Source: a virus | Virus record (IMG/VR): IMGVR_UViG_3300046804_004893 | Coordinates: 1-39,936 of that record | Direction: 5' to 3' (one strand) | Length of the DNA: 39,936 nt | Part shown: positions 7,027 through 39,936 of the stretch, piece after piece | Numbering within the stretch: position 1 is the first letter of the stretch | How the letters are laid out: each line of letters opens with the position of its first letter | The notes under the pieces: generated by a model | Told to the model about the DNA's origin: nothing | The model's input: the letters and a program-made list of their open reading frames with translations, nothing else | The model's database searches: none | Program-made: the position numbers and the translations under genes

Positions 7027-7479
7027 TTATTCCTCTGTTGTTTCCTGTGTGTCTTGTGTCTGTGCCTTTTCATGTTCTTTCAGAATAATAGCGGAAGCAA
7101 AAGCATAAACTTCCATATCACTTTTTGCTCTACGAAGAGCAGACTTAAGTTTTTTTTCCGTCGTTTGTTTAATTACTTCCACGTCAAAAGCTTGAAGTTT
7201 CAGGTTGAACAGCCGCTCTTGTCTTTCTTTATCTTTTTGAGCTGCTTCTTTTTTTTCTTGCATCTCACGGTCGCGAGCTTGCTTTGTTATTGCTTTACGC
7301 GTATTTTCTTCTATTTGTTCTGGCGAAAATTCAGCTTGCACTTGCAACAAGTCTGTGTTATTTTGATCATCACCATTAATGACAGCGGACATAACTCTAC
7401 CATCATCATAGTGAAATTCAACAGATAATACTGTTCGCGCATTATTAATCCAATGAGGATTTTTGATAGTTCTTTTCAT
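7027..7479 (-). CDS. Fibre-associated coiled-coil protein
   Basis: A 150-residue protein. The ATG at 7479 overlaps the TGA of the 1382-residue fibre as ATGA and has AAGGA four bases upstream, so I prefer it to the in-frame ATG at 7494 inside the fibre. Residues 1-45 (MKRTIKNPHWINNA, then VLSVEFHYDDGRVMSAVI) form a small beta unit like those in short proteins encoded after fibre genes. Residues about 55-115 are a charged helix (EMQEKKEAAQKDKERQERL), and the tail is acidic and Gln/Thr-rich. By position it could be a fibre assembly chaperone analogous to tail-fibre-assembly proteins, but no direct family match is claimed. Confidence 0.6.
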   Translation of the reverse strand: MKRTIKNPHWINNARTVLSVEFHYDDGRVMSAVINGDDQNNTDLLQVQAEFSPEQIEENTRKAITKQARDREMQEKKEAAQKDKERQERLFNLKLQAFDVEVIKQTTEKKLKSALRRAKSDMEVYAFASAIILKEHEKAQTQDTQETTEE

Positions 7480-10400
7480 GCTGTCCTTACCCAAAGTTTA
7501 ATTGTTGAAACTGTTTCCGGAGTTGAAATAATTGTTAGGCCTGTGTACGCACCAGTAAATGCTTGTGTATACACCCCGGTATATACTGCAGTGTATGCTC
7601 CTGTAAACGTACCTGTAAACGAGCCAACATATACGCCAGTAAAAGTGCCGGTGAAAGCTTGACTATAGGTACCAGTGTAGGCAGCAGAGTACGTTCCAGT
7701 ATATAGTCCTGAGTAGCTTCCCGTGAATACACCTGTAAAACTATTTGCATAGTTACCCGTAAATGACTGATTATACACTCCAGTAAACGCACCGGTAAAC
7801 GCTTGATTGTACAAACCGGTGAATGTACCGGTGAATCCTCGGTTGTAAATCCCCGTAAACGCTTGGTTAAACGCACCAGTGTAAGATCCAGCATATGCGC
7901 CACTGAATGCACCAGTATACGTTCCGGAATAACTTCCCGTAAACGCTCCAGTGAATTGTTGATTAAACAACCCTGTGAATGCACCAGAAAACGCTTGGTT
8001 GTACGTACCGCTGTAGTTACCAACATACCCACCTGAATAAGCACCGGTGAAAGTTTGTGAGTAGTTACCGGTATATGGACCCGTAAACGCTTGTGCATAA
8101 TTACCAATGTAAGCACCAGAGTAGGATCCACTGTAAGAACCCGAGTATGTTCCCGTATAGGCCCCTGTAAACGTTTGACTGTAGATACCAGTATAAGCAC
8201 CCGTGAACAGTTGACTGTATGTGCCTGCGTAAGCACCAGTAAATGTTTGCGAATAGCTACCGGAGTACGATCCTGTGAATACTCGACTGTAAACACCCGT
8301 GTAGGTACCAGTAAATGTCTGCTGATAATTGCCAGTATAAGAGCCTGTAAACGTTTGGTTGTATATGCCAGTGAACGCACCTGTAAACACTTGCGAATAG
8401 TTGCCCGTATATGCACCTGTAAATGTCTGCTGGTAGTTTCCTACATACGCGCCAGTAAACGCTTGGTTGTAAGAACCGGAATAGGAACCGGAGTACGTGC
8501 CTGTAAAAGTTTGTTGGTAGTTACCTGAATAGGCACCGGTGAATGCTTGGTTATAAGAACCAGAATAGGAACCGGAATATGTCCCGGTAAACGTTTGTTG
8601 ATAGCTACCTGAATAGGCACCAGTAAACGCTTGGTTATAAGAACCAGAATAGGAACCGGAATATGTCCCGGTAAACGTTTGTTGGTAATTACCTGAATAG
8701 GCACCGGTGAATGCTTGATTGTACGTGCCGGAATATGCACCACTGTACGATCCAGTAAAATATCCCGTATACCCGCCACTATACGCACCAGTAAACGTTT
8801 GCTGATAGTTGCCTGAATAGACACCTGTAAATGCTTGGTTATATGAGCCGCTATATGTTCCACCATAGGCTCCGCTGTAGAGACCCGTATAGTATCCCGT
8901 GTATGCGCCAGTGAATGCTCGTGTGTAAGCACCGGAATACAGGCCTGTATAGTATCCAGTGTAATAACCAGTGTATGCACCAGCATACGAACCAGCGTAT
9001 GTACCGGCAAACCGTGCATACACACCAAATGTTCTATTATTAAGTTTTGCGCCGGTCCAATACCCTCTGTAAATACCTGCATATGCTAGGTATGCTGGGG
9101 ACCCAGCATAGTATATAGTACTACTAAAATACTTAAGAAGCCCTGCAGCTCTGTAAACTTCTGTACCATAACCAATAGGACCTGTTACATACAATCCGGT
9201 GTAGTAGCCCGTATAAGTTGTCCACGCCCCACTCCCAGCATAGTATACAATACCAGCTGTTGTCTGACCGTACGCGCCCGCCCACACAGCACCAAGACCT
9301 GCCAAATAGTTACCTGTATAATATCCCGTAAAGTATCCGGATATTGAGCCAGCATAATATAAAACGTACGTGCCTGCATAACCACCTGAATATACTATAC
9401 CTGTGTATAATCCGGTGTAGTATCCCGTATAGTATCCCGTATAATACCCTATGTAAGTACCCGCATAAGCTCCTGAGTATGCACCAGTAAACGCCTGGTT
9501 GTATGATCCCGAATATGTGCCGGCATAAGCTCCAGCATATGCTCCTGTATATGATCCTGTATATGCTCCTGTAAATGCTCTCGTATAAGCTCCCGAATAA
9601 GATCCGGTGAACGTGCCGATATAACCACCGGCATATGATCCTGTGAATACACTAGCATAAGTACCTGCATATGCACCTGTATATGCACCCGTAAACGCTC
9701 TCGTATAAGCTCCCGAATAAGATCCGGTGAACGTGCCGATATAGCCACCGGAGTATATGCCCGTGTAAGAACCAGTAAACGCTCTCGTGTAAGCTCCCGA
9801 ATAAGATCCGGTAAACGTGCCAATGTAACCACCGGAGTATATGCCCGTGTAAGAACCAGTGAACGCGCTTGTATAGGCACCAGAAAATACTCCCGTAAAC
9901 GTGCCGATATAGCCACCGGAGTATATGCCCGTGTAAGAACCAGTAAACGCTCCCGTGTAAGCTCCCGAATAAGATCCAGTAAACGTGCCGATATAACCAC
10001 CGGAATAAACACCAGTAAATGTACCTGTGAATCCCTGATTGTAAATCCCTGTAAACGCTCCCGTGTATCCACCAGAATAAACACCGGTGAATGTACCAAC
10101 ATACCCACCTGAAAATAAGCCAGTAAACGATCCTGTATACCCGCCTGAGTATGCACCGGTAAACGTACCTACATAACCACCCGAATACGAGCCGGTGAAC
10201 GACCCCAGGTAGCTACCGGAAAATAAGCCAGTAAACGATCCTACATATCCACCACTATATGTGCCTGTATACACACCCGTATAGAGGCCCGTGTACAACC
10301 CTGTATATGAGCCTGAAAATACCTGTGTGTATGCTCCGGAATATATTCCTGTAAATGTCCCTGTGTATCCACCACTGTATACGCCCGTATATGTGCCAGA

Positions 10401-11624
10401 ATATACCCCTGTAAACTGACCAGTGAACGCTTGGCTGTAAACACCCGTGAATGTGCCAGTGAACGCTTGACTGTACACACCAACATATGCACCAGTGAAC
10501 GCTTGGCTATACGTTCCAGCGTATAGTCCACTATAAATGCCTGTGAACGTTCCTGTATACACGCCTGTAAATTGACCTGTGAACGCTTGATTATATGCAC
10601 CAGTGAACGTACCAGTAAATCCTTGATTATAGACGCCCGTGAACGCTCCCGTGTAGGATCCAGCGTATAGCGTAGCAAACGCTTGAGCATAGTTACCAAC
10701 AAAAGCACCGGTATATGCACCAGTCCACACACTACCATAAGCACCAGTGAAAGTGCCAGTAAAGTTACTCGAATAAGCGCCGGTAAAGTTGCGACTAAAT
10801 GCTTGATTGAACGTGCCAGTATACGATGTTGAATACGAGCCCGTATAAGCTGAAGTGTACGAACCCGAATAACTTGTATCTTGCGTTTGATACCTTGTAT
10901 CATCAAAACCCGATCCAACCTGCACCCACGTGCCAGGATCAACAGGCGTTGTCGTGGACAACTTATACAAGCCCACACCACTTGTCAGAATATAATTACG
11001 AACCTTGTGTGTAAGTGTCTTGATTTCAGCATCAGACATTTGTCTGAAACCGGCGGCAAATTTGATTGGCCGGGTTTCAGTAGTGCTTGAGTCTGCAGTG
11101 CGTTGCCATAGTGTCGTTGTATTAGTAGTGCCGTTTGTCAGCGTGTTGGTTAATGTGCCACGTGACACCCAAGTTCCCGTTGCCGGCGCCGTCGGTTGAA
11201 GCACATAACCACCAGCACCTCCACTGTTCATATAAGATGTGATGACGGGCAAGACAGTCGACGAGAGATCACTGTCTGTTAGTTGCTGAAATCTGCTATT
11301 GGTGGTATCCCAACCAAACGGCCGAATAAAATTTGTATCCGTGAGTGTGCTATTAGAAACGTCTTGATAAACGGTCGTGCTGTTTGTCGTGATGGATGAA
11401 GGACTAACAGGATGAGTTCCTAATGCATCTGTTCGGTAAGTATCAACCCATGTACCGATAGACGTACCATTTGACATTGATCCAACAGCGAGCGATCCAA
11501 CACTTGAATTTGAAGCAAAATCTTCACCCACCTTAATAGCAAGGTAGTTTAAGATGTCCGTATTGGACATCACTTGAAGAGATTTTGTTGAACTATTAAA
11601 TTTAAGAGGTGCAATTGCTGGCAT
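7476..11624 (-). CDS. Giant aromatic-Ser/Thr-Gly-X tetrapeptide repeat fibre (1382 aa)
   Basis: Residues 1-245 are non-repetitive and include two copies of a module with a T/SDxE/DL helix, a GxGxY turn and GTWV (such as TGTWVSRG). From about residue 250 nearly everything is a four-residue repeat, Tyr/Phe-Ser/Thr-Gly-X, written as YTGAFTGVYSGGYTG or YNQAFTGAYSGNYQQ, well over 200 tetrads. A less regular island near residues 740-880 (about 9000-9420) contains IVYYAGS, GPIGYGTEVYR and TGAKLNNRTFGVYARF. The protein ends LWVRTA. Synonymous codons vary widely between tetrads, which indicates selection on protein rather than simple DNA slippage. The paralogue at 11643-14255 has the same architecture. 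The fold is unknown; a regular beta shaft with an aromatic ladder is plausible. No catalytic motif is seen. Confidence 0.85.
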   Translation of the reverse strand: MPAIAPLKFNSSTKSLQVMSNTDILNYLAIKVGEDFASNSSVGSLAVGSMSNGTSIGTWVDTYRTDALGTHPVSPSSITTNSTTVYQDVSNSTLTDTNFIRPFGWDTTNSRFQQLTDSDLSSTVLPVITSYMNSGGAGGYVLQPTAPATGTWVSRGTLTNTLTNGTTNTTTLWQRTADSSTTETRPIKFAAGFRQMSDAEIKTLTHKVRNYILTSGVGLYKLSTTTPVDPGTWVQVGSGFDDTRYQTQDTSYSGSYTSAYTGSYSTSYTGTFNQAFSRNFTGAYSSNFTGTFTGAYGSVWTGAYTGAFVGNYAQAFATLYAGSYTGAFTGVYNQGFTGTFTGAYNQAFTGQFTGVYTGTFTGIYSGLYAGTYSQAFTGAYVGVYSQAFTGTFTGVYSQAFTGQFTGVYSGTYTGVYSGGYTGTFTGIYSGAYTQVFSGSYTGLYTGLYTGVYTGTYSGGYVGSFTGLFSGSYLGSFTGSYSGGYVGTFTGAYSGGYTGSFTGLFSGGYVGTFTGVYSGGYTGAFTGIYNQGFTGTFTGVYSGGYIGTFTGSYSGAYTGAFTGSYTGIYSGGYIGTFTGVFSGAYTSAFTGSYTGIYSGGYIGTFTGSYSGAYTRAFTGSYTGIYSGGYIGTFTGSYSGAYTRAFTGAYTGAYAGTYASVFTGSYAGGYIGTFTGSYSGAYTRAFTGAYTGSYTGAYAGAYAGTYSGSYNQAFTGAYSGAYAGTYIGYYTGYYTGYYTGLYTGIVYSGGYAGTYVLYYAGSISGYFTGYYTGNYLAGLGAVWAGAYGQTTAGIVYYAGSGAWTTYTGYYTGLYVTGPIGYGTEVYRAAGLLKYFSSTIYYAGSPAYLAYAGIYRGYWTGAKLNNRTFGVYARFAGTYAGSYAGAYTGYYTGYYTGLYSGAYTRAFTGAYTGYYTGLYSGAYGGTYSGSYNQAFTGVYSGNYQQTFTGAYSGGYTGYFTGSYSGAYSGTYNQAFTGAYSGNYQQTFTGTYSGSYSGSYNQAFTGAYSGSYQQTFTGTYSGSYSGSYNQAFTGAYSGNYQQTFTGTYSGSYSGSYNQAFTGAYVGNYQQTFTGAYTGNYSQVFTGAFTGIYNQTFTGSYTGNYQQTFTGTYTGVYSRVFTGSYSGSYSQTFTGAYAGTYSQLFTGAYTGIYSQTFTGAYTGTYSGSYSGSYSGAYIGNYAQAFTGPYTGNYSQTFTGAYSGGYVGNYSGTYNQAFSGAFTGLFNQQFTGAFTGSYSGTYTGAFSGAYAGSYTGAFNQAFTGIYNRGFTGTFTGLYNQAFTGAFTGVYNQSFTGNYANSFTGVFTGSYSGLYTGTYSAAYTGTYSQAFTGTFTGVYVGSFTGTFTGAYTAVYTGVYTQAFTGAYTGLTIISTPETVSTIKLWVRTA
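8455..8810 (-). repeat. 84-bp tandem superrepeats in the giant fibre gene (array 1)
   Basis: Equivalent points recur at 8467, 8551, 8635 and 8719, exactly 84 bases apart, and the copies at 8551 and 8635 are nearly identical. The unit encodes 28 residues, seven tetrads, covering YSGSYSGSYNQAFTG and AYSGNYQQTFTG. Outside the array the spacing remains a multiple of 12 bases. Confidence 0.85.
9580..10000 (-). repeat. 84-bp tandem superrepeats in the giant fibre gene (array 2)
   Basis: The marker GCTCCCGAATAAGATCC and its variants occurs at 9589, 9709, 9793, 9877 (diverged) and 9961. Spacings are 120, then three times 84 bases. The unit encodes a different seven-tetrad block containing YSGGYIGTFTG and SYSGAYTRAFTG. 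Array 2 is independent in sequence from array 1 but has the same 28-residue length. Confidence 0.85.
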
Positions 11625-11642
11625 GACGATCGCTATACAACA

Positions 11643-14255
11643 TTAAGCCGTACGAATCCACAACGTTGTGGTGTTACTTGATGTTGTATTTATGACTGCC
11701 AAACCTGTGTATACACCTGAGAACGCTCCGGTGAACGCTTGGTTATATATTCCCGTAAACGACTGAGCATAGACACCTGTGAACCCAGCACTGAAAGCCT
11801 GTGAATATGCTCCTGTAAACAACGATGTAAATGATCGATTGTATGCACCAGTAAACGCGCCGGTATATGCTGATGAGTACGCACCGGTGTAAGCGCCAGA
11901 GAAAAATCTAGAGAATGAACTTGAATATAAGCCCGTGTAAGAACCAGTGAACGCGCCGGTGTAAGAGCCGGAATAGGAACCAGTGAAAACACGAGAGTAC
12001 ACTCCTGTAAATGTGTTGCCATATGCTCCGACAAAAAGACCGGTGAACGTTCCTGCGTAACTTCCACTGTAAGTGGATGTGAATGCACCTGTAAAGCTGC
12101 TGGCAAATTTCGCATAAACGCCAAATAACCTATTATCAAGTTTAGCGCCTGTAAAAAATGCCTGATATGTTCCGACATAGTTGACGCCCGCTGGTGTACC
12201 ATTGTAATAAACAGTGCCTGTATACGTACCGCCCCATGTGCCGGGAGTGTAGTTGTCTAGACCATATCCCACAGCTCCTGCTGCAAACAGTCCAGTAAAA
12301 TAACCAGTATAATTGGTAATTTGTGTAACTGGTCTTCCGCCGTAATAAATTGTTGTTGTTGCAAAGAAATTAGCATAACTTCCAGCATATGCACGTGGCT
12401 TACCAAGACCCGTGTAAGCAGGGTTACTGTAAAGCCCAACATAGTTGACGCTCGCCGCTCTACCACTATAATAAACAGTGCCCGCATAGGTTCCTGCATA
12501 GGTCCCGGTTATCTGATAAGATTCTGTACCCGATCCTGGTGAAGAAAGGAACGTTCCAGCATATGTTCCTGCATAACCAGCGTATCCGGCAAGTCTTCCG
12601 CCATAATAGATAACCAAAGAATATAGACCAGTGTATGAACCACCATACGCTGTTGCACTATACATGCCAACGTACGCTCCGGCAAACGAAGAGTTGTACA
12701 ACCCGGTGAACAATCGACTGTAACTGCCGCTATATGCACCTGTAAATCCACTTGCGTACAATCCCGTAAAGGCATTCGTGTACCCACCGGCGTATGCGCC
12801 AGTAAATGCTTGATTGTACGTGCCAGAATATGATCCACTGTATTGAGTTGTAAAACTGTTTACATACGATCCAGAATAGTTGCCGCTGAATGCTCCAGTA
12901 AACTGCTGACTATAACTTCCCGAGAACGCTCCGGTAAATGATCCAGCATATGGACCAGTAAAAGCTCCGGTAAATGCGTTACCATATTGTCCCGTGAACG
13001 CGCCCGTGTATATTCCTGTAAACGCGCCTGTAAAATTACTTGCAAAAAAACCGGTGTAATTTGTTGCTGATGTATTATTGCGCTTATCAACAAATTGACC
13101 ACGCGACACCCACGTTCCAACACCGGGAGCACTTGTTCCAAACGAGTACTGCCCAATGCCTGTACTCATCATAAATTCGTAAAAATACAACGAAAGAGTC
13201 TGGAGCTGAGAATCTGTCATCTCCACTAATCCTCTTACGTTTGCATCGTAATACAAAGGACGAATATGAAATAGTGACGAGTCGTAGGAATACGTGTCTG
13301 TTCGGCGTGCAAGATAATACAGATCATACGTGAGACTAGGCGATGCATAATAATCTTGCATTACGCCTGCAGTTGACCACGTCCCAGTGGCAGGAATCTG
13401 TGATGAGGTACCAACAACATAACTACCGCGGCCGCTACTGTCTAGATCAGCTGCTGAGAAAAATGCGGGCCAAAAATGATCATTTAAATCATTGTTGTCC
13501 ATTGTTTTTATTTCAGTCCTATCACCATTTTGACTATAAAAAACAGGACGAATGATACTTGGGTTAGTGAGCATACTCACTGATCTTAGTGCACCAGCTT
13601 GACCAATACTTGCAGCTGTTGTTTGAGATTGATATATCGTATATTCACTCTTAATAGCCGTAGACACGGGATGTGATCCAACACCCAATTGATCAGCCGT
13701 ATACGTCACTGTAGTACCTGGAACACCAGAAAAATACGGAGTTGAAGTAAAGGAACCCACATATCCATTATACACGCCAACTTCACTATCGGAAATATTA
13801 ATAGTGTCAGTTGCTGAGCCGCGACTAATATTATTTGTTGAAGGGTTGTTTACAGAGAGAACCGTGCCAGGTACGGACCCTGGATATGTAAGCCAATAAT
13901 TGATCATTACCGGAATTACACAGTCCTGTAACTCAGCATCGGTCATTTCCTGAACACCATCCACGACAACACGTGTCAGGGTGTGCGTACCGGTGCCCTC
14001 CGAACCAATATCGAGCGGTAGACCTCCGGAGCTTTGTGTTAGCTGAATCGTTGTCGGAGTTGTATTTGTAACATAGTATGGCGCGCTATTAACTAACGGA
14101 CTCATTGCTGTACCGACTGTTGTGTATACAACAAGAGCGTTATTTACAAACGCATGCCCACTGCTGAAAAGAATGGTGTCAGAAACTTTATTTACAGCTG
14201 TATTTGCAAATGTTACAGCAACGTTTGCATACCTTGCTCTAAGAGGTCTTGCCAT
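11643..14255 (-). CDS. Aromatic tetrapeptide-repeat fibre, shorter paralogue (870 aa)
   Basis: This is the paralogue of the 1382-residue neighbour. Residues about 23-95 hold a diverged copy of the HGF-type module seen in three other structural genes here (SSGHAFVNNALVVY, then PYYVTNTTPTTIQLTQSSGG and GTHTL). Residues about 100-400 contain about three copies of the MTDxxL...GxGxY...GTW module (EMTDAELQD, EMTDSQLQTL, VGTWVSRGQ). From about 405 the Tyr/Phe-Ser/Thr-Gly-X tetrads begin, interrupted at about 550-720 by an island with repeated YYxGRxA units and TGAKLDNRLFGVYAKF. It ends LWIRTA, matching LWVRTA of the paralogue. The function is presumably receptor binding or a fibre shaft at the baseplate; the fold is unknown. 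Confidence 0.85.
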   Translation of the reverse strand: MARPLRARYANVAVTFANTAVNKVSDTILFSSGHAFVNNALVVYTTVGTAMSPLVNSAPYYVTNTTPTTIQLTQSSGGLPLDIGSEGTGTHTLTRVVVDGVQEMTDAELQDCVIPVMINYWLTYPGSVPGTVLSVNNPSTNNISRGSATDTINISDSEVGVYNGYVGSFTSTPYFSGVPGTTVTYTADQLGVGSHPVSTAIKSEYTIYQSQTTAASIGQAGALRSVSMLTNPSIIRPVFYSQNGDRTEIKTMDNNDLNDHFWPAFFSAADLDSSGRGSYVVGTSSQIPATGTWSTAGVMQDYYASPSLTYDLYYLARRTDTYSYDSSLFHIRPLYYDANVRGLVEMTDSQLQTLSLYFYEFMMSTGIGQYSFGTSAPGVGTWVSRGQFVDKRNNTSATNYTGFFASNFTGAFTGIYTGAFTGQYGNAFTGAFTGPYAGSFTGAFSGSYSQQFTGAFSGNYSGSYVNSFTTQYSGSYSGTYNQAFTGAYAGGYTNAFTGLYASGFTGAYSGSYSRLFTGLYNSSFAGAYVGMYSATAYGGSYTGLYSLVIYYGGRLAGYAGYAGTYAGTFLSSPGSGTESYQITGTYAGTYAGTVYYSGRAASVNYVGLYSNPAYTGLGKPRAYAGSYANFFATTTIYYGGRPVTQITNYTGYFTGLFAAGAVGYGLDNYTPGTWGGTYTGTVYYNGTPAGVNYVGTYQAFFTGAKLDNRLFGVYAKFASSFTGAFTSTYSGSYAGTFTGLFVGAYGNTFTGVYSRVFTGSYSGSYTGAFTGSYTGLYSSSFSRFFSGAYTGAYSSAYTGAFTGAYNRSFTSLFTGAYSQAFSAGFTGVYAQSFTGIYNQAFTGAFSGVYTGLAVINTTSSNTTTLWIRTA
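11687..11694 (-). promoter_or_regulatory. Possible late promoter variant (CATAAATA)
   Basis: The minus strand reads TCATAAATACAACA inside the last codons of the 870-residue fibre, about 63 bases before the start of the 1382-residue fibre. It differs from TATAAATA only at the first base and shares the 12-mer TCATAAATACAA with the site at 31561-31568. The octamer is inside coding sequence, so chance is a real alternative. Confidence 0.3.
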
Positions 14256-20390: not shown

Positions 20391-23300
20391 TTAAACCTTT
20401 AATGCTTTTGCAATTTGACCCACCACGCCTGCTACTCCGCTGAATATAGAGCGACGTACCGTACCACGCGGGGCACATGCAAAATATGCTAGCGGTTTTG
20501 TTACAATTGTTGTGTCAAACATACCAAAGAATTTATTAATCAAATATGATCCGTACAACGTCGTTTGTGAAGCATCGACCATATCTGCTACAGTCTTATT
20601 TACATCATCTTCAGACAACACTCCATGGATAAAGCCTTTTGTTAGGGCACCGCCATCACCTAGAATAGAAGTCGTACCATAACCGTTTACTCTGTAAGTA
20701 CCATCACCCTCGACCCACAAATTATACACAAACTTTTCTTCATTCTTAACAACGTCACACTCTTCAAGTTTTTCAACATCGAGCCACAAATACAAATCTG
20801 ATTGTGGTGCTTTCAAAACACCATCGATCATCAGAGGGTGGTTAGTTGTTGCAAACGGAACCAATTTACCAACTGGCGTGTACAAGAAAGGTAGTGTTTC
20901 TTTTGTTGCGCGTTCGATAAACACAACCTTGTTAGTGGTACTACCGTCAGCACTCTTAACAAGATCACCAATTTGAACCTCAACAATACGCTTGGTTGTT
21001 CCATCAGCCATTTCAATAAGTGTATCAGCAATAAAGCAACCACCGCCACATCCACCACCGCTTTGGTTTGTTCTGGAACCTGTACCGTCATAATTTACAG
21101 GATCAGGAATTTCTTCAACAATACCTCTCGTCTTAATAGAGAACGTCGGTGGTGCTACGGTACCTTCACCAACAAACTGAGTACGTACGCCAGCTGATGA
21201 TACAACAGCACTTTTAATTGTTTGATCAATCAAAGTTTCATCTGCAAATGGTAACATCAACGTCGTGTTATTAACAACAGCCACAGATGTGTTTGCATCT
21301 GTCAAATCAAATGCACACTCAAAGTTAATTTGCTTAGTGGCTGGTTTCAACAAACCAATTTCGCCATCGATAGATGCGTTAAATTCAAGATGATTTGCAT
21401 CTACTTTGGTGTAATCCTCAAAGGGTTCTACAAAGAAGCCGTGCTTAAAGCGACTTGTTGTTGGTGTAATAGAACTTGGAATTACCTTTTCCTTGACTGA
21501 TTTTTCTACCTGATTCAAGTTCGAAATATACTCGACGTTTTGTAGGCGACGCTCAAGTTTGCTAATGTCCGCCATTGAATAACGGCGAGGTTGTGAAAGA
21601 GCAACACCCTTCTGCGTGTATGGGCCAATCGAAAATATCTTTGTGCGTCGATCCGTCACACCCAATGCATTACCAACTTTCTTCGAAGCTATTTCTAAAG
21701 TTGTTGTACCCATCATTGTTGGAATTGATGGATATTGAGGCACGTTGAGTAGGGATAGTGTAATCTCACCAGCTTGAGCAGCTGGTGGTCGCACATTCAA
21801 AATACCAGGTGTACCTTGAACAATCTTAAACTGCCCATCCTTGTTAACAGAAACACGATCGATACGTTTGTTATAGTAACGCGCATCAAAAGCAACCGTG
21901 CTATCAGGTGCTGGCCACAGCTGATCTGATCCACTCAGAGCAAATGTGTTAGCTGGGTTAACGTTTGCGGACGCGGCTGACGTTGCAAGTGCAGCTGTGT
22001 TTGATGCGTACGGACGGAAGTCAATAATATCTCTATGATCGTAATATTCACCCGTCGATGTAATTACTTCCGGAATCTCTAGCGTGTTAACTTGGTTAGA
22101 AGTTAGACTTGCAAGATTGGCTGAGTCATTGATTGTATATGAACCAACAGTAAAGAAACCTTCTGCTGAAGAACGGAAAGCATCAAACTGGACCAGCATG
22201 TATGAGTTTGTGTCCAATGCCAACGTGGCACCACGACGCATTACAAGCTGCGCTGTTCTGTAAGCGTTCTCATCTTCACCAGCGTCGATGAAGAAGTACT
22301 TTGTTATATCCGTGCTCGATGTACTAACTGTTGATGAGTTGCCCAGATAAACGTTCTTTAAACGCAGAGCACCAGGAACACCAAGAGCCCAAGGACCAGT
22401 GTTGCTGCCAGCGTTATTGCTTGTGTGTATCTTTACGAATGCATCACGCGTTACGCTCTTTGTTACCGGCGATTGGTTAGTTAGTGTTTTATTAAAAATA
22501 ACAGCGACGTTGACGACTGATGACAACGTTTTGTTCATTGTAATTGTAAGTGTCTTTGATGTCCCCGATACAGCAGCAGAACGATCTGATCGATCGGCTA
22601 GAGCGATTGGGTAAAGAGCTGGATAGAAGTTTGCTGCATTGCCCGTCATAGCAACGCCGCTTGTTGTCAAATACATCTTTGTATTGTTTGCAACAGTCGC
22701 AACCTGTCTGTATATTGTTGCGGTTGAATTAGCAATTGCAACAAAGTCACCAGCAATGAAGGATGATGTAAAGGTAGTGCCAGAACCGTCTAATGTGGTA
22801 TTTGCGTAGGCAGTGATGCCACCCGTCACGTTAGCTGTTTGTGCGTTCGCAATAGGAATGACAATAATATCACGCTTCTGTGTAGTACCAAGAGTACCAT
22901 CGCTGTAGGGGAATGTTTCACCCGTACCAAGCGGACCTACTGTAATTTGACCGCCAGTGGTTAGCTGATAGTTAGTATCTGAGTTTGTTCTAATAGTATA
23001 CGTTACACTTGTGACGTTGCTAAGAGCAACTTGTCCCAAATTAAACAACATCTTGTTACGAGTTATGTCTTTTACAATAGCAACATCTTCATTTGTTGTC
23101 GCGTCTTTTGTAAGCACAACGTCAGCAATACCATCTTGAACACCATCATAATACACAGCACGTACGTCACGGAAAGACTTACCAGCTGACATTGTAATGT
23201 CAAACAGATATAGACGATACACAGCATTAGCTGTGCCTGGTAAGCCACTATCTAGCACAAGCGAGCGGATTCGTGCTGTACCAATTTGATTACCGGGTGC

Positions 23301-25013
23301 TGTAATCGATGCAGTATTAATTGTTGCGTTTGTAATATACTGCTTTGCAGTATCGCGCAAACTAATCTGATCGCCAGTCTTAAAGTTGAAAATACCAGCA
23401 AGCTCTTTTATTTCAAGGTAATTACCATAATTAATAGAAATTGTTTGGTTGCTTGTATTTGATGTTGTGGTTGATCTTTCTAGATCAAGCAAGCCGTTGT
23501 TGAGCGTCTGTACACGATAACCGGAAATGTATCCTGTGCCCGGATCAATCACAGCATCAACAAAAGAAGTATTCGTTGATGTCTTTTCGCGTGATGAAAC
23601 GTAGAACGGATCAACAACAAAGTCACCTTGTGCCTCACGTGTGCGTCTAGCAAATTCGTTAGCTAAAGTATTATAAACGGTGACACGGTTTTCTTTATAA
23701 GGAACACCCTCTTTCCATTCAGCTAAAGCAAAAAAGTCAACGTTGGCAGCAGCTTCTTCAATAGAAAGTTTGCTTAAAACTGGCGTTAGCTTTAAGCGGT
23801 CTGCGCCTGGAGCTGAATAGTTTGTTGTGTTTGATGCGTTGTCATACAACGTATCGTCTTCATCAGCATCGACAAAAGTTTCAACAGTCTTGAAACCAAC
23901 AACGACGTTGTTTGGAGACGTATTGTATTTGTCAACGACAATAACAGAGTTGTTAACTGTTAGGAACAATCCTTTTTGATAGATTACACCTTCCGATACA
24001 CTGAAAGCGTAACCAGCACCGACAGAGTTAATCGAAGAATTTCCGATCGTGACTGTTGTCAGGTAGTTTTGTGAAACTAGATCTAGATCATTAACTGTAG
24101 CGGAAGAGTTTGCCGTCTGAACAGTAATGTGAGGAAGGAATGTGTAGTCTTTCCCTTTCTCCGTCATTGTAATGGTTTGGATAATACCAAGAGAGTCTGT
24201 GGTTATCAAACCAACAGCACCTTCACCAATAACAGAACTTACTGTTGATGTCTCTACCGTTGTGTTACTTACAATATTATAACCTGGCACAAACGTCCAC
24301 GCTGCAGAAGTGACGGCTGTGTTTTTCAGGTCAACGGTGCGAGGTTTAATACTCAGAATAATTGTATTTGAAATTGCTGTAGTGTTTACAGACTTAATGA
24401 TAGCCTTTGCACCAGTCGTTGCTTGTGTAATCTCCTCACCGACAGCATATGTACCTGTATTATCAGTAATAACCAAAGCACCCGACACAATAACAGTATC
24501 GGAGTTGGAGAAACCAGAACCACCATTGTTAACTGTAATTTTAAAGAGGTCGTTGTTTTTGCTAAAGACAGTTAGTTGCTGATCAGCAGCAAACGTAGTG
24601 CATGCAGATAGAGAAGCCGATACGTATTGGACGTAGAGAGTTTTTAGATCGGGAGTCTGAGACTCAAGACCGTCTTGATAATTGACAACACGTGCAGTAA
24701 GATTGTTGCTATCCTTGACAAAGTATCCCACATAGCTAGAAGGCAACGAAGGTTGACCGTCGACTTGGATATCAAGAATTTTTACATAGCTGTAGTTGGG
24801 AAGATACGTAAAGTTTACACCACTTACGATTGTACCAGACTTAAAAACGTGATTACCAAATCGCTCGATCTGGTTTTGAAGAATCGTTTGGAGCTGATTC
24901 AACTCGCGCGTCTGTACAGCGACTCCTGGTTTAAAAAGAATGCGATAATATTCTTTTTCGGGATCAAAGTCGTCAAAGTACGGACTGACGTTGAGGGTGT
25001 TCTCTAATGGCAT
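20391..25013 (-). CDS. DUF4815-type virion protein with C-terminal Hint (intein/hedgehog-like) domain, 1540 aa
   Basis: Residues 1-100 (NVSPYFDDFDPEKEYYRILF, PGVAVQTRELNQLQTILQNQ, FGNHVFKSGTIVSG) are the characteristic start of DUF4815 virion proteins. The middle is beta-rich and includes RRYSMADISKLERRLQNVEY, a coiled-coil segment also typical of this family. After a GGGCGGG linker, Cys1326 begins CFIADTLIEMADGTTKRIVE and IGDLV, a Hint block A. FATTNHPLM (His1392) fits block B, and VYNLWVEGDGTYRVNG (about 1429-1444) fits the last strands. The usual terminal His-Asn is absent (GYGTTSILGDG instead), and about 90 residues follow. Autocleavage at Cys1326 rather than splicing is therefore likely. 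It sits between gp8 and the fibre genes, so it may bridge wedge and fibres. Confidence 0.8.
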   Translation of the reverse strand: MPLENTLNVSPYFDDFDPEKEYYRILFKPGVAVQTRELNQLQTILQNQIERFGNHVFKSGTIVSGVNFTYLPNYSYVKILDIQVDGQPSLPSSYVGYFVKDSNNLTARVVNYQDGLESQTPDLKTLYVQYVSASLSACTTFAADQQLTVFSKNNDLFKITVNNGGSGFSNSDTVIVSGALVITDNTGTYAVGEEITQATTGAKAIIKSVNTTAISNTIILSIKPRTVDLKNTAVTSAAWTFVPGYNIVSNTTVETSTVSSVIGEGAVGLITTDSLGIIQTITMTEKGKDYTFLPHITVQTANSSATVNDLDLVSQNYLTTVTIGNSSINSVGAGYAFSVSEGVIYQKGLFLTVNNSVIVVDKYNTSPNNVVVGFKTVETFVDADEDDTLYDNASNTTNYSAPGADRLKLTPVLSKLSIEEAAANVDFFALAEWKEGVPYKENRVTVYNTLANEFARRTREAQGDFVVDPFYVSSREKTSTNTSFVDAVIDPGTGYISGYRVQTLNNGLLDLERSTTTSNTSNQTISINYGNYLEIKELAGIFNFKTGDQISLRDTAKQYITNATINTASITAPGNQIGTARIRSLVLDSGLPGTANAVYRLYLFDITMSAGKSFRDVRAVYYDGVQDGIADVVLTKDATTNEDVAIVKDITRNKMLFNLGQVALSNVTSVTYTIRTNSDTNYQLTTGGQITVGPLGTGETFPYSDGTLGTTQKRDIIVIPIANAQTANVTGGITAYANTTLDGSGTTFTSSFIAGDFVAIANSTATIYRQVATVANNTKMYLTTSGVAMTGNAANFYPALYPIALADRSDRSAAVSGTSKTLTITMNKTLSSVVNVAVIFNKTLTNQSPVTKSVTRDAFVKIHTSNNAGSNTGPWALGVPGALRLKNVYLGNSSTVSTSSTDITKYFFIDAGEDENAYRTAQLVMRRGATLALDTNSYMLVQFDAFRSSAEGFFTVGSYTINDSANLASLTSNQVNTLEIPEVITSTGEYYDHRDIIDFRPYASNTAALATSAASANVNPANTFALSGSDQLWPAPDSTVAFDARYYNKRIDRVSVNKDGQFKIVQGTPGILNVRPPAAQAGEITLSLLNVPQYPSIPTMMGTTTLEIASKKVGNALGVTDRRTKIFSIGPYTQKGVALSQPRRYSMADISKLERRLQNVEYISNLNQVEKSVKEKVIPSSITPTTSRFKHGFFVEPFEDYTKVDANHLEFNASIDGEIGLLKPATKQINFECAFDLTDANTSVAVVNNTTLMLPFADETLIDQTIKSAVVSSAGVRTQFVGEGTVAPPTFSIKTRGIVEEIPDPVNYDGTGSRTNQSGGGCGGGCFIADTLIEMADGTTKRIVEVQIGDLVKSADGSTTNKVVFIERATKETLPFLYTPVGKLVPFATTNHPLMIDGVLKAPQSDLYLWLDVEKLEECDVVKNEEKFVYNLWVEGDGTYRVNGYGTTSILGDGGALTKGFIHGVLSEDDVNKTVADMVDASQTTLYGSYLINKFFGMFDTTIVTKPLAYFACAPRGTVRRSIFSGVAGVVGQIAKALKV

Positions 25014-36349: not shown

Positions 36350-36945
36350 TGGCTACACAAATTTTTGAAAAATACTTGACTGAGGTTCCAAACCCTCAAC
36401 AAGCAACCGCCAATGCTTCTAACTGGTTACGCGAACAAGCAAAGCGCGTCACGTCGCCAATCGATGCGCGCCGTGTATTAAACAACACAAAAACATCTGA
36501 CCGGCTTGTAACAAGTCTGACAGTTGGGCGCATGTATTTGTTTATGTATGATCCAAAACTAAAACAAGAACTGCCTTATTATGACAAATTTCCGCTTGTA
36601 TTTCCCTTCAGACGTGTGAAAGGTGGATTCTACGGTATTAACATGCACTACTTACCTCCCCTGATGCGTGCTAAGCTAATGGATGCGTTGTACACGATTG
36701 TTAATAACCAAGCACAAGACGACACAACAAAACTACGAATATCTTATCAAATTCTTTCTCGTGCTTCGCGTTTTCGTTATTTTCAACCATGTGTAAAACA
36801 CTATCTAAATAGTCACGTTCGAACACGCTTTCTTTGGGTGCCCGCTGATCAATGGGAAACAGCACTCTTCCTGCCTCTAGAAAGATTCGTTGGAGCTACA
36901 AAACAACAAGTATGGCGAGAAAGTAAACGAATGGTACCACGATAA
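36349..36945 (+). CDS. Conserved T4-like phage protein of unknown function (198 aa)
   Basis: I do not recognise a named family with certainty. The protein has a helical N-terminus (FEKYLTEVPNPQQATANASN, WLREQAKRV), then a compact beta segment VGRMYLFMYDPK, ELPYYDKFPLVFPF and GGFYGINMHYLPPLMRAKLM (about 90-125). After that come RFRYFQPCVKHYLNSHVRTR and a Trp-rich WVPADQWETALFLPLERF. The FPLVFP...GFxGINxHYLPP pattern is strongly constrained and recurs in T4-like phages, so this is a real virion or packaging protein. It overlaps both gp4 and the tail-tube protein as TAATG, implying coupled translation. A head-completion, DNA-end or tail-assembly factor are the candidates. Confidence 0.6.
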   Translation: MATQIFEKYLTEVPNPQQATANASNWLREQAKRVTSPIDARRVLNNTKTSDRLVTSLTVGRMYLFMYDPKLKQELPYYDKFPLVFPFRRVKGGFYGINMHYLPPLMRAKLMDALYTIVNNQAQDDTTKLRISYQILSRASRFRYFQPCVKHYLNSHVRTRFLWVPADQWETALFLPLERFVGATKQQVWRESKRMVPR

Positions 36946-37772
36946 TGGCAAAACTCATCAACACAGCAATGAATGCGATTGGTACAATCGCAGCGTTGAA
37001 GTCACTAACTGGTAAAGCAAAACCTGCACGCCCAAGTAAGTTGAACAACTTTATGGCGGAACTGCGGGAAAGTGGTGTTGCGCGTACTAATTTGTTTGAG
37101 GTACAGTTGTCTGCTCCTTTGATGATGGTAGGGTTTGCTAAGGAGGTACTCCCAAAGATATCCTTGCTTGCAGAAAGCACTCAACTGCCCGGAATAAACA
37201 TCCAGACGGAAGACTCCGTCAAGCGTTATGGTGTAGGTTTACAAGATCACATTGCGTATGGTGCAGGATTCAATGATATTACCGTTGGTATAATTGGAGA
37301 TGGTCGCGGCGAGATTTATAAATTCTTCTACCGCTGGATGCATGGTATCGTTAAATCGGATTTTGATGGACCAGCAAACGTTGTTGGATATAACGGCATT
37401 GCTCCTCATGAGGTGGAGTTTAAATCTGACTATCAAACAACAATTGACATAATAACTTATAACGAATCAAACGACACAATACTTCAATATCAATTGTTTG
37501 GTGCATTTCCAAAAAATTTACCCGACATCAGCTTGAGCTGGTCGGATTCTGATATGATGAAATTCAATGTATCGTTTACATATAACTATGCACGCCTTGT
37601 AAATATTGATCAAGCTGCGACATTAACGCCTAACGGTATTAAAGGTCTCAGTACACTACAAAAATTGGTTAAAATTGGTACTGCAGTACAGGCAATTGCT
37701 TCGCTCAAACGTCCTCGTAGTATCCAAGATGCGCTGGCCAGCACATCAACTATCAAAAACATTTTTAATTGA
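36945..37772 (+). CDS. gp54: Tail-tube-family protein, gp54/gp19-like baseplate tube initiator
   Basis: A 275-residue protein. After a basic helical N-terminus (about 1-35) the tube-fold segments appear in order: RTNLFEVQLSAP, ISLLAESTQLPGINIQTED (about 72-90), FNDITVGIIGDGRGEIYKFF, WMHGIVKSD, then YQTTIDIITYNES, QLFGAFPKNLPDISLSWSDS and MKFNVSFTYNYARL (to about 222). This is the pattern of the gp19/gp48/gp54 tail-tube family. Length (T4 gp54 320, gp19 163) and its place beside gp48 and gp26 favour gp54, the initiator on which the tube polymerises; tail tube gp19 is the alternative. Confidence 0.65.
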   Translation: MAKLINTAMNAIGTIAALKSLTGKAKPARPSKLNNFMAELRESGVARTNLFEVQLSAPLMMVGFAKEVLPKISLLAESTQLPGINIQTEDSVKRYGVGLQDHIAYGAGFNDITVGIIGDGRGEIYKFFYRWMHGIVKSDFDGPANVVGYNGIAPHEVEFKSDYQTTIDIITYNESNDTILQYQLFGAFPKNLPDISLSWSDSDMMKFNVSFTYNYARLVNIDQAATLTPNGIKGLSTLQKLVKIGTAVQAIASLKRPRSIQDALASTSTIKNIFN

Positions 37773-37791: not shown

Positions 37792-38502
37792 ATGAAATTG
37801 CCAACAGTTTCGCATCCCACATTTACCTTAAATCTTCCTTCCACAGGTCAGACTATAACGTATCGGCCTTTCCTTGTCAAAGAGGAAAAGATTTTACTTA
37901 TAGCTCAGTCCAGTGAAGACCAAGCAGACATTGTCCGCGCAATTAAACAGGTTATCACAAACTGTATAATTGAGCCACGTATTAGCGTAGAAGACTTTAC
38001 GACGTTTGATCTTGAATATTTCTTTATCAAATTAAGAGCAAAGTCCGTTCAAAATGTAATTAGGCTGCAGTACCGCGACAACGAAGACAAACAGGTGTAC
38101 GATGTTGAAGTTGATCTTGAAAGCATCGAGGTGACAAAGACGGAAGAAGTTGATAACAACGTTCAAATTACTCCCGATAGTGGTCTTGTATTGAAGTTTC
38201 CAACAATGAAAATTATGAACGACGTGGAAAACATTACCAACCCTGTCGATTTCAACTTCGCAATTATGCAAGCATGCATTGACTGCTACTACGAAGGTGA
38301 TCGCGTGTATAAATTTAGTGAATTCACTCGTGAAGATATACAAGAGTTTATTGAAGGGTTTGATATTGCCACATATCAAAAAATGCAAGCGTTTATTGAC
38401 AGTATGCCACGAATTGAACACACCACGAGTTATACAAACAGTAATGGAAAAGTTGTTGAAATTAAGTTACGGACACTAAATGATTTTTTTTCATTGGGCT
38501 GA
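37792..38502 (+). CDS. gp26: Baseplate hub assembly protein gp26
   Basis: A 236-residue member of the T4 gp26 family (T4 gp26, 208 residues). Family features are the N-terminal LPTVSHPTFTLNLPSTGQTI, YRPFLVKEEKILLIAQSSED (about 24-43) and VRAIKQVITNCIIEP. DLEYFFIKLRAKSVQNVI follows at about 73-90, then the C-terminal FREDxxEFIEGFD-type helix. GGAAT lies a few bases before the start, after a 19-base gap. In T4 gp26 acts in hub assembly with gp51 and gp28. The gene ends in a run of eight T (38484-38491) followed by the stop at 38500, a probable -1 frameshift site leading into the gp51-like frame. Confidence 0.8.
   Translation: MKLPTVSHPTFTLNLPSTGQTITYRPFLVKEEKILLIAQSSEDQADIVRAIKQVITNCIIEPRISVEDFTTFDLEYFFIKLRAKSVQNVIRLQYRDNEDKQVYDVEVDLESIEVTKTEEVDNNVQITPDSGLVLKFPTMKIMNDVENITNPVDFNFAIMQACIDCYYEGDRVYKFSEFTREDIQEFIEGFDIATYQKMQAFIDSMPRIEHTTSYTNSNGKVVEIKLRTLNDFFSLG
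38484..38490 (+). other. Probable -1 programmed frameshift site (T TTT TTT)
   Basis: In the gp26 frame the bases are gaT TTT TTT, an ideal X XXY YYZ slippery heptamer. The -1 frame has a TGA immediately before it (38481-38483) and is then open to 38672. The zero-frame stop is only 10 bases after the heptamer. The layout leaves the T run as the point where a -1 switch could occur. No downstream stem or pseudoknot was identified by eye. Confidence 0.6.
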
Positions 38503-38672
38503 GCCATAACTCCTTAGCCAATTACTACTCGTTGCTGTTTAGTATGGTTCAGCATCATAAATATTCATTAACAGAATTAGAAGAGATGTACCCTTTCGAA
38601 CGTGATTTGTATGTTGATATGCTAAAGGACTACCTCAAAGAAGAACAACAACGTCTAACACAGAAATCATAA
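38484..38672 (+). CDS. gp51: gp51-like hub assembly reading frame, probably translated as a gp26-fusion by -1 frameshift
   Basis: In the -1 frame the sequence after the T run encodes FIGLSHNSLANYYSLLFSMV, then YSLTELEEMYPFERDLYV and DMLKDYLKEEQQRLTQKS before TAA at 38670-38672. The ELEEMYPFERDLYVDMLKDY helix resembles short gp51-like hub-assembly proteins of marine T4-like phages and, more loosely, the T domain of tail-assembly GT chaperones. Coding-like sequence begins well before the first ATG (38544), with no clear ribosome site, so a fusion is favoured. A slip at 38484-38490 gives a product of about 293 residues. Initiation at TTG 38532 or ATG 38544 is the alternative and would give about 43-46 residues. 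Confidence 0.6.
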   Translation, partial: FFFIGLSHNSLANYYSLLFSMVQHHKYSLTELEEMYPFERDLYVDMLKDYLKEEQQRLTQKS

Positions 38673-38675
38673 TAA

Positions 38676-39936
38676 ATGGCAGAGCGTTCTTTCAAAGACG
38701 ATTTAAAATCAACAATCAAAGCCAAGGCCGTAAAAGGGATCACAGGATCCCTTTTTGGTTCTGGCATTGTTGGGACTGCGTTAAAAAGAACGTTCCAGCG
38801 TAAATTTGCTGATAAAAACGAAGATCAAGAAAAAGAAGTTGTAGGTGCTTTAGAAGAACAGCGTCAAGTCATTACAGACAATGACATGACGCTGTTGCGC
38901 ATCGAACGTATTGTAATGAACATTGCTGATAATGTGTATAACATTGCCGGCATCATGAATGCACAGGTCGTGTCGATGCGTGAGGCAGAGCGTCAACGCC
39001 AGCAGGCGCGTTCTCGCGATCTAGCTGCACGTGAAGAGGCCATGGCAGAAGCAACGAGAGAACAAGCTCCTGGCATTGCTGGAACGGAGATTGTAAAGGA
39101 GGGAGAAGAGGGTAAGAAAGGCATTCTTTCTTCAATCCTCGGCACCGTTGGAAAAACCAAACGAATGTTTGGTATGTTCTTGCGTAAATTTGGTGTCGCA
39201 GCTCTTGCTGTCACGGGCACATTGGCGGCCGCCACCGCTGCAATAGCAACCATGCGCAACGGTAATACAGATGATGGTGATGGGGAAGAGGTTGATGTTG
39301 AAGATGGAGAGAGTCAAGATACCACGACACCACCAAGTCAAAGCTATTTGAATGAAACATCTCTACTCGGTGGAGACATAGCTGCAGGAATGGCAGGGGA
39401 CATTCCAGATCTTTCTCAATCAACTACACAAGCTACTGTTGTTACGGAGCCACCTTCTCCACCACCTCCACCTCCTCCTACTCCTGTACAACAAGAATCA
39501 CCTTTTGGTCAGATGATGTCTCAATTTTCTCAAATGACATCATCACTACCGGGCGGTGCAGCGGCAAGAGATCAAATGCAGCCTTTCATGGCTTCGATGG
39601 GTAGTTCGGATCCGATTGGCGGTTTTATAGCAGCTGCTCAAGCACACTCGGCTCGCTACCCACAGCAGCAAGCGCAACCGGCGCCTTCACCACCAGCATC
39701 ACCACCAGCTCCCACTCCCAGTGTCGTTGAACAACCATCGCTTTCTGCCAATGAGCCTCCACGCAAAACACCTGAAGAGCAAATAGAAACCACAAAAGGT
39801 TATATTGCGGATAACAACAAAAGATTAGCTCAACGGGAACGTGCTTATGGAATGAGAACAGCACGAATCCGTGAACAATATGCTGATGATCTGGGTACAA
39901 TGAAGCAAATGCTCGATGATGAAGCAAGAGAAATAG
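38676..39936 (+). CDS. Candidate hub / tape-measure-type virion protein, N-terminal 420 residues (cut by window edge)
   Basis: The frame opens at ATG 38676, three bases after the gp51-like stop, and is still open at the right edge. Residues 1-45 are basic (MAERSFKDDLKSTIKAKAVK). Residues about 68-128 form a helical, charged segment (TLLRIERIVMNIADNVYNIA, then MREAERQRQQARSRDL). A hydrophobic Ala-rich stretch lies at 172-193 (FGVAALAVTGTLAAATAAIA). An acidic linker and polyproline (about 259-271, PPSPPPPPPPTP) follow, then Gln/Met/Pro-rich sequence and another helix from about 366. Place (after gp26-gp51), a membrane-like segment and low complexity suit a tape-measure or hub protein as with T4 gp29, but no sequence signature confirms it. 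Confidence 0.6.
   Translation, partial: MAERSFKDDLKSTIKAKAVKGITGSLFGSGIVGTALKRTFQRKFADKNEDQEKEVVGALEEQRQVITDNDMTLLRIERIVMNIADNVYNIAGIMNAQVVSMREAERQRQQARSRDLAAREEAMAEATREQAPGIAGTEIVKEGEEGKKGILSSILGTVGKTKRMFGMFLRKFGVAALAVTGTLAAATAAIATMRNGNTDDGDGEEVDVEDGESQDTTTPPSQSYLNETSLLGGDIAAGMAGDIPDLSQSTTQATVVTEPPSPPPPPPPTPVQQESPFGQMMSQFSQMTSSLPGGAAARDQMQPFMASMGSSDPIGGFIAAAQAHSARYPQQQAQPAPSPPASPPAPTPSVVEQPSLSANEPPRKTPEEQIETTKGYIADNNKRLAQRERAYGMRTARIREQYADDLGTMKQMLDDEAREI

Follow-up and report, generated by a model that had tools for sequence, protein, structure and literature searches.

In phage lambda, gpG and gpGT were reportedly described by Xu, Hendrix and Duda in 2004 as a frameshift pair, in which a short form is accompanied by a long form made by −1 frameshifting at the slippery site G GGA AAG, and which adjoins the tail tube gene ahead of the tape measure region. 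For Escherichia coli dnaX, the slippery site is A AAA AAG, and the stimulators are a Shine-Dalgarno (SD)-like element upstream and a stem downstream. Among T4-like phages, frameshifting is said to have been found conserved in several groups by Vladimirov, Gautam and Davidson in 2022, T4 itself using genes 26 and 51.

That paper (Virology 566:9–15, cited in PMC10885494 and PMC12846349) deals with tail assembly chaperone (TAC) genes in T4-like phages. Poly-T slippery sequences in T4-like TAC-N genes are credited to Vladimirov et al. 2022 in PMC12846349, and according to the citing articles some T4-like phages dispense with frameshifting by having a short gene and a long, fused one. Since T4-like TAC genes were reported in 2022, the frameshift considered here belongs to an already known phenomenon.

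The window analysed here, a 39,936-nucleotide stretch of viral DNA, very probably contains, judging by sequence, the TAC locus of an uncultivated T4-like phage, in which a −1 slip aided by an RNA stem would yield the fusion protein TAC-NC (Table 1). A covarying downstream stem is documented here for this T4-like TAC locus, and its gp26 is at most 39% identical to those of the nearest named phages. The locus carries the PF12322 domain and the phrog_634 C-domain of the T4-like gp26/gp51 family. In T4, too, PF12322 is shared by gp26 and gp51, while the phrog_634 domain is confined to gp51, which is equivalent to TAC-N plus the C-domain; unlike in the window phage, the two T4 genes lie apart in divergent orientation, and gene 26 reads GAG TTC TTT GAG, without the heptamer. 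The predicted arrangement resembles lambda in its short and −1 frameshifted long forms and in its place next to the tail tube gene, ahead of a candidate tape measure region. Unlike lambda, the window phage has the slippery site T TTT TTY and is T4-like, contractile-tailed by its baseplate genes.

Table 1. Features of the predicted TAC locus, in window coordinates
Feature	Position	Strand	Evidence or remark
Tail tube gene, directly upstream of gp26	36945..37772	+	phrog_45, 1.1e-36
gp26-like ORF, predicted short form TAC-N, 236 aa	37792..38502	+	PF12322, phrog_150, AF2 model
Slippery heptamer T TTT TTT, in gp26 phase	38484..38490	+	TTTTTT[T/C] in relatives
−1 frame, gp51-like C-terminal domain (putative TAC-C)	38484..38672	+	phrog_634, tblastn to 572 phage records
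Stem 5' arm GCTGAGCCA	38498..38506	+	Fold z, pair counts; spacer of 7 nt from the heptamer, includes the TGA that ends gp26
Stem 3' arm TGGTTCAGC	38545..38553	+	Fold, pair counts, codon choice
Following ORF, truncated at the window end	38676..39935	+	Candidate tape-measure/hub gene

The slippery heptamer and the −1 frame

The gp26-like product matches PF12322 (T4_baseplate, 1.4e-49) and phrog_150 (2.2e-54), and the 3' end of its gene reads CTA AAT GAT (38482–38484) TTT TTT TCA TTG GGC TGA (38500–38502). The T run comprises eight T's (38484–38491), one beyond the heptamer. In the −1 frame, a TGA (38481–38483) is followed by an open stretch (38484–38669) that ends at TAA (38670–38672) and matches phrog_634 ('baseplate hub assembly catalyst', 2.8e-23), starting at its second residue. 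The TGA arises because a T-ending codon precedes GAT, as a by-product, and is not conserved among relatives. A sequence-only reading of this DNA had proposed a programmed −1 frameshift from gp26 into this frame; its position and phase for the heptamer, the opening of the −1 frame at the slippery site after the TGA, the end of that frame at 38672 and the fusion length of about 293 residues (293 aa, 233 + 60) all agree with the sequence. It had also seen coding-like sequence ahead of the first ATG of the −1 frame, which is indeed present, over 60 nt rather than the roughly 40 it gave: the ATG lies at 38544, 60 nt past the start of the family-like sequence, and a TTG lies at 38532. We infer that the −1 frame is translated as part of the 293-aa TAC-NC. 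Because TTTTTTY is no more frequent in the window than in shuffles (29 found, about 37 expected, at least 29 in 90 of 100 shuffles), the heptamer alone is not beyond chance, and the evidence therefore comes from the conjunction of features across relatives.

Two sets of IMG/VR loci were fetched, 80 by gp26 and 80 by the −1 frame, with a few contigs common to both; 80 of the 81 rows of the gp26-found set were long enough to show the junction. NNT TTT TTY stands in phase at the gp26 end in all 80 of these, and all 80 loci found by the −1 frame have TTTTTT[T/C] preceded by an open gp26 frame. The X XXY YYZ pattern of −1 frameshifting, as T TTT TTY in the zero-frame phase, is hence present in 160/160 loci, and the comparison with T4-like relatives proposed in the earlier reading comes out in favour of a conserved run and phase. 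Among 58 loci (dereplicated at 80% for entropy and stop counts), entropy is zero at each of the first six T's, although two are synonymous gp26 sites and neighbouring third positions average 1.79 bits. The first Phe codon is always TTT, for which codon use in these genes gives p ~2e-16 when the relatedness of loci is ignored.

A T run may also act on RNA polymerase, which would add one U so that the fusion would be made from an altered mRNA, and the window's eight T's are enough for some polymerase slippage. However, among 100 loci dereplicated at 85% (75 TTTTTTT-type and 25 TTTTTTC-type), the run stops at six T's, with a C next, in 25 and reaches eight in only 12, the tandem-slip phase is always kept, and the stem at the usual distance and the SD-like elements upstream, both described below, are hallmarks of ribosomal frameshifting. 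We therefore consider transcriptional slippage improbable.

The −1 frame contains stops in 0/58 loci, while both other frames are stopped in 58/58. In the stretch from the gp26 stop to the earliest possible starts, its third position has an entropy of 1.53 bits versus 1.07 and 0.96, and this variation is a coding pattern. The gp51-like alignment begins at the heptamer, ahead of any start codon. A separate gp51-like gene with its own start codon, for which one can point to the distinct gp26 and 'baseplate hub assembly catalyst' coding sequences of most records and to genes 26 and 51 lying apart in T4, is very unlikely against these observations. In the window, the first ATG and the first TTG of the −1 frame are codons 20 and 16 of the conserved domain, no purine-rich ribosome site precedes either, and residues that are conserved, as well as variation of a codon-like kind, already occur ahead of both. 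The position of the first start codon varies widely among relatives, which leaves the conserved N-terminal part unaccounted for by a separate start, and a separate gene would leave the invariant heptamer and the stem unexplained. A consistent separate start, which the earlier reading had named as contrary evidence, is absent among the IMG/VR relatives, and its proposed frameshift is strongly supported by the conserved run, its phase and the coding character of the −1 frame. The pair would share its N-terminus, with the long form produced by frameshifting near the 3' end, as in known TAC pairs. An assembly error or a decaying gene, for all that homopolymer runs are error-prone, is refuted by about 160 contigs and many isolate genomes that share the break and its phase, and its likelihood is practically nil.

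The NNT TTT TTY junction is present in 15 of the 17 named phages examined, including the Kyanoviridae S-PM2, S-WAM1, S-BM3, S-PRM1, Melnitz and Mosig, Schizotequatrovirus and Ceceduovirus members of the Straboviridae, and Cr30, phiM7, Astolliot, ACP17, PhiW-14 and DLP6. The exceptions are Vibrio phage K413, which has no heptamer, and Listeria phage LIS04. In K413 (locus L097, 3142–3345), the stop codon of gp26 and a −1 frame ATG overlap (TAATG), and re-initiation could take the place of frameshifting. In LIS04 (locus L100, 2483–3425), a PF12322-like gene lies between tail tube and tape measure and the gp51-like C-domain follows a T run in the +1 (= −2) frame, which hints at a different shift in Thornevirus. 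A frameshift is annotated in none of the database records examined; these divide what would be a single product between two genes, under the names 'baseplate hub' and 'hub assembly catalyst'. Because of this, the gp51-like ORF is given internal starts (e.g. KR052480 phiM7, MT647606 Mosig and MZ577098 Melnitz-3) or is missed (S-WAM1, S-BM3 and S-PRM1).

RNA elements around the heptamer

Downstream of the heptamer, the window (38491–38570) folds at −22.5 kcal/mol, with a z of −4.23. Single-sequence folds of about half of the loci, in which the structure was detected before being tested further, contain a nine-pair stem joining offsets 14–22 with 61–69, counted from the first T. At least eight of the nine pairs are kept in 58 of the 75 TTTTTTT-type loci and in 4 of the 25 TTTTTTC-type loci. 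In a 75-sequence alignment (A1), 89.2% of stem cells are paired, versus 21–40% (at most 39.7%) when the arms are slid, and six pairs have changed on both sides, in 26 cells versus 3.9 in shuffles (0/500); these shuffle values, like the other p values, ignore the relatedness of loci. Mean folding z 3' of the heptamer is −3.4 in TTTTTTT-type loci, versus 0.15 and −0.3 in control stretches.

Codon choice within the stem is constrained more tightly than the protein requires. Leu is encoded by CTG in 59/61 stem-positive loci versus a background of 8% in the same genes, Ser by AGY in 54/54 versus 29%, and Gln by CAG in 59/61 versus 28%; these loci were picked by pairing, from which part of the codon contrast follows, but the contrast with the background does not. 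Stimulators of −1 frameshifting are structures 5–9 nt downstream or SD elements upstream, and this long-loop stem, at 7 nt, is likely the stimulator of the slip. The earlier reading had suggested a search for a downstream pseudoknot. Pairing of the stem loop with downstream sequence was no better than in shuffles (mean z 0.31, 62 loci), and a simple stem with a long loop is the likely stimulator. RNAalifold predicted no common structure for the 75 aligned sequences, probably owing to rows without the stem, and Rfam has no family near the frameshift site. The covarying 9-bp stem is newly documented here and may be undescribed. Three loci (L150, L158 and L159) have a compact local hairpin of about 9–11 bp, at offsets 11–37 after the heptamer, in its place.

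An SD-like 4-mer lies 5–18 nt upstream of the heptamer in 15 of the 25 TTTTTTC-type loci, which belong mainly to the cyanophage side of the tree, versus 2.2% in control stretches. No such element was found as a stimulator in the window. Some TTTTTTC-type loci, such as those of S-PM2 and S-WAM1, combine an SD-like element with a strong stem, the two stimulators of dnaX; unlike dnaX, these sites have a T run, and the window's clade mostly lacks the SD-like element. As an alternative to the stem, the element is possibly undescribed. We lean towards the view that the T4-like TAC frameshift is kept by exchangeable stimulators, namely the stem in a large, mostly uncultivated clade, the compact hairpin, and the SD-like element mostly in cyanophages; the relation between the stem and the lack of an SD-like element offers too few independent contrasts to stand beyond clade membership. 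If so, the window's clade would use an undescribed stem whose arms, 38 nt from each other, both lie in the sequence coding for TAC-C, where synonymous codons would be fixed to build it, L150, L158 and L159 would have swapped it for the compact hairpin at the same place, and the cyanophage side would mostly rely on the SD-like element before T TTT TTC.

Predicted chaperone fold and gene neighbourhood

The AF2 model of gp26 (pLDDT 84, 44-row alignment) gave a weak result with Foldseek alone, the most probable match being the HK97 TAC 2OB9 (0.57, E 1.3). When it was realigned against the PDB, the best matches were 3FGX (Z 8.3), HK97 2OB9 (Z 7.3) and YqbN 3KLU (Z 7.0), followed by one at 4.0, all within the N-terminal ~90 residues (about 1–95) of gp26. 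Because the best Z for unrelated models is typically 7–8, what counts for the fold is that each of the three leading matches is a phage tail assembly chaperone (PMC9603447). The gp26 N-domain is thus predicted to have the TAC fold known from HK97 gp13, YqbN and RBSTP2171.

The ORF that follows the junction has no significant Pfam or PHROG match. An ORF 42% identical to it follows the junction in locus L001, and downstream genes of S-PM2 and Cr30 have tape-measure/lysin matches; the window ORF and the first S-PM2 downstream protein show no similarity. It is a candidate for the tape measure role by synteny only. Given the predicted TAC fold and the tail tube gene upstream, gp26/gp51 are best read as TAC-N/TAC-C, that is, as a TAC-N/TAC-NC pair rather than a hub-assembly pair. 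The likeness to G/GT logic drawn in the earlier reading hence fits a TAC-type pair, while the 'hub-assembly' label it kept is historical.

Elsewhere in the window, the minus strand encodes a 1540-aa structural protein (20391–25013, DUF4815), the C-terminal part of which is weakly Hint/intein-like (PF01079, 2.7e-5), and two very long GSYTGAYTGTFTG-type repeat proteins of 1382 aa (7476–11624) and 870 aa (11643–14255), the former with a match to a Gly-zipper family.

Proposed production of two chaperone forms

We hypothesize that most ribosomes would read gp26 to its TGA and release the 236-aa TAC-N, whereas a minority, helped by the stem 7 nt downstream, would slip one base back with two tRNA-Phe on T TTT TTT, and would then translate the gp51-like domain in the −1 frame to give TAC-NC. 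The analogy of lambda gpG/gpGT suggests that both proteins, present at a fixed ratio, would bring in the tape measure protein and coat it as the tail assembles. The slippage itself, its rate and the ratio of the two proteins are deduced from sequence features, and binding of TAC-NC to the tape measure is presumed from that analogy.

The findings support a single explanation for the production of TAC pairs in a widespread group of aquatic phages. In addition, the conserved stem, its codon signature and the SD variants provide natural variants with which the determinants of frameshift rate could be measured over deep evolution.
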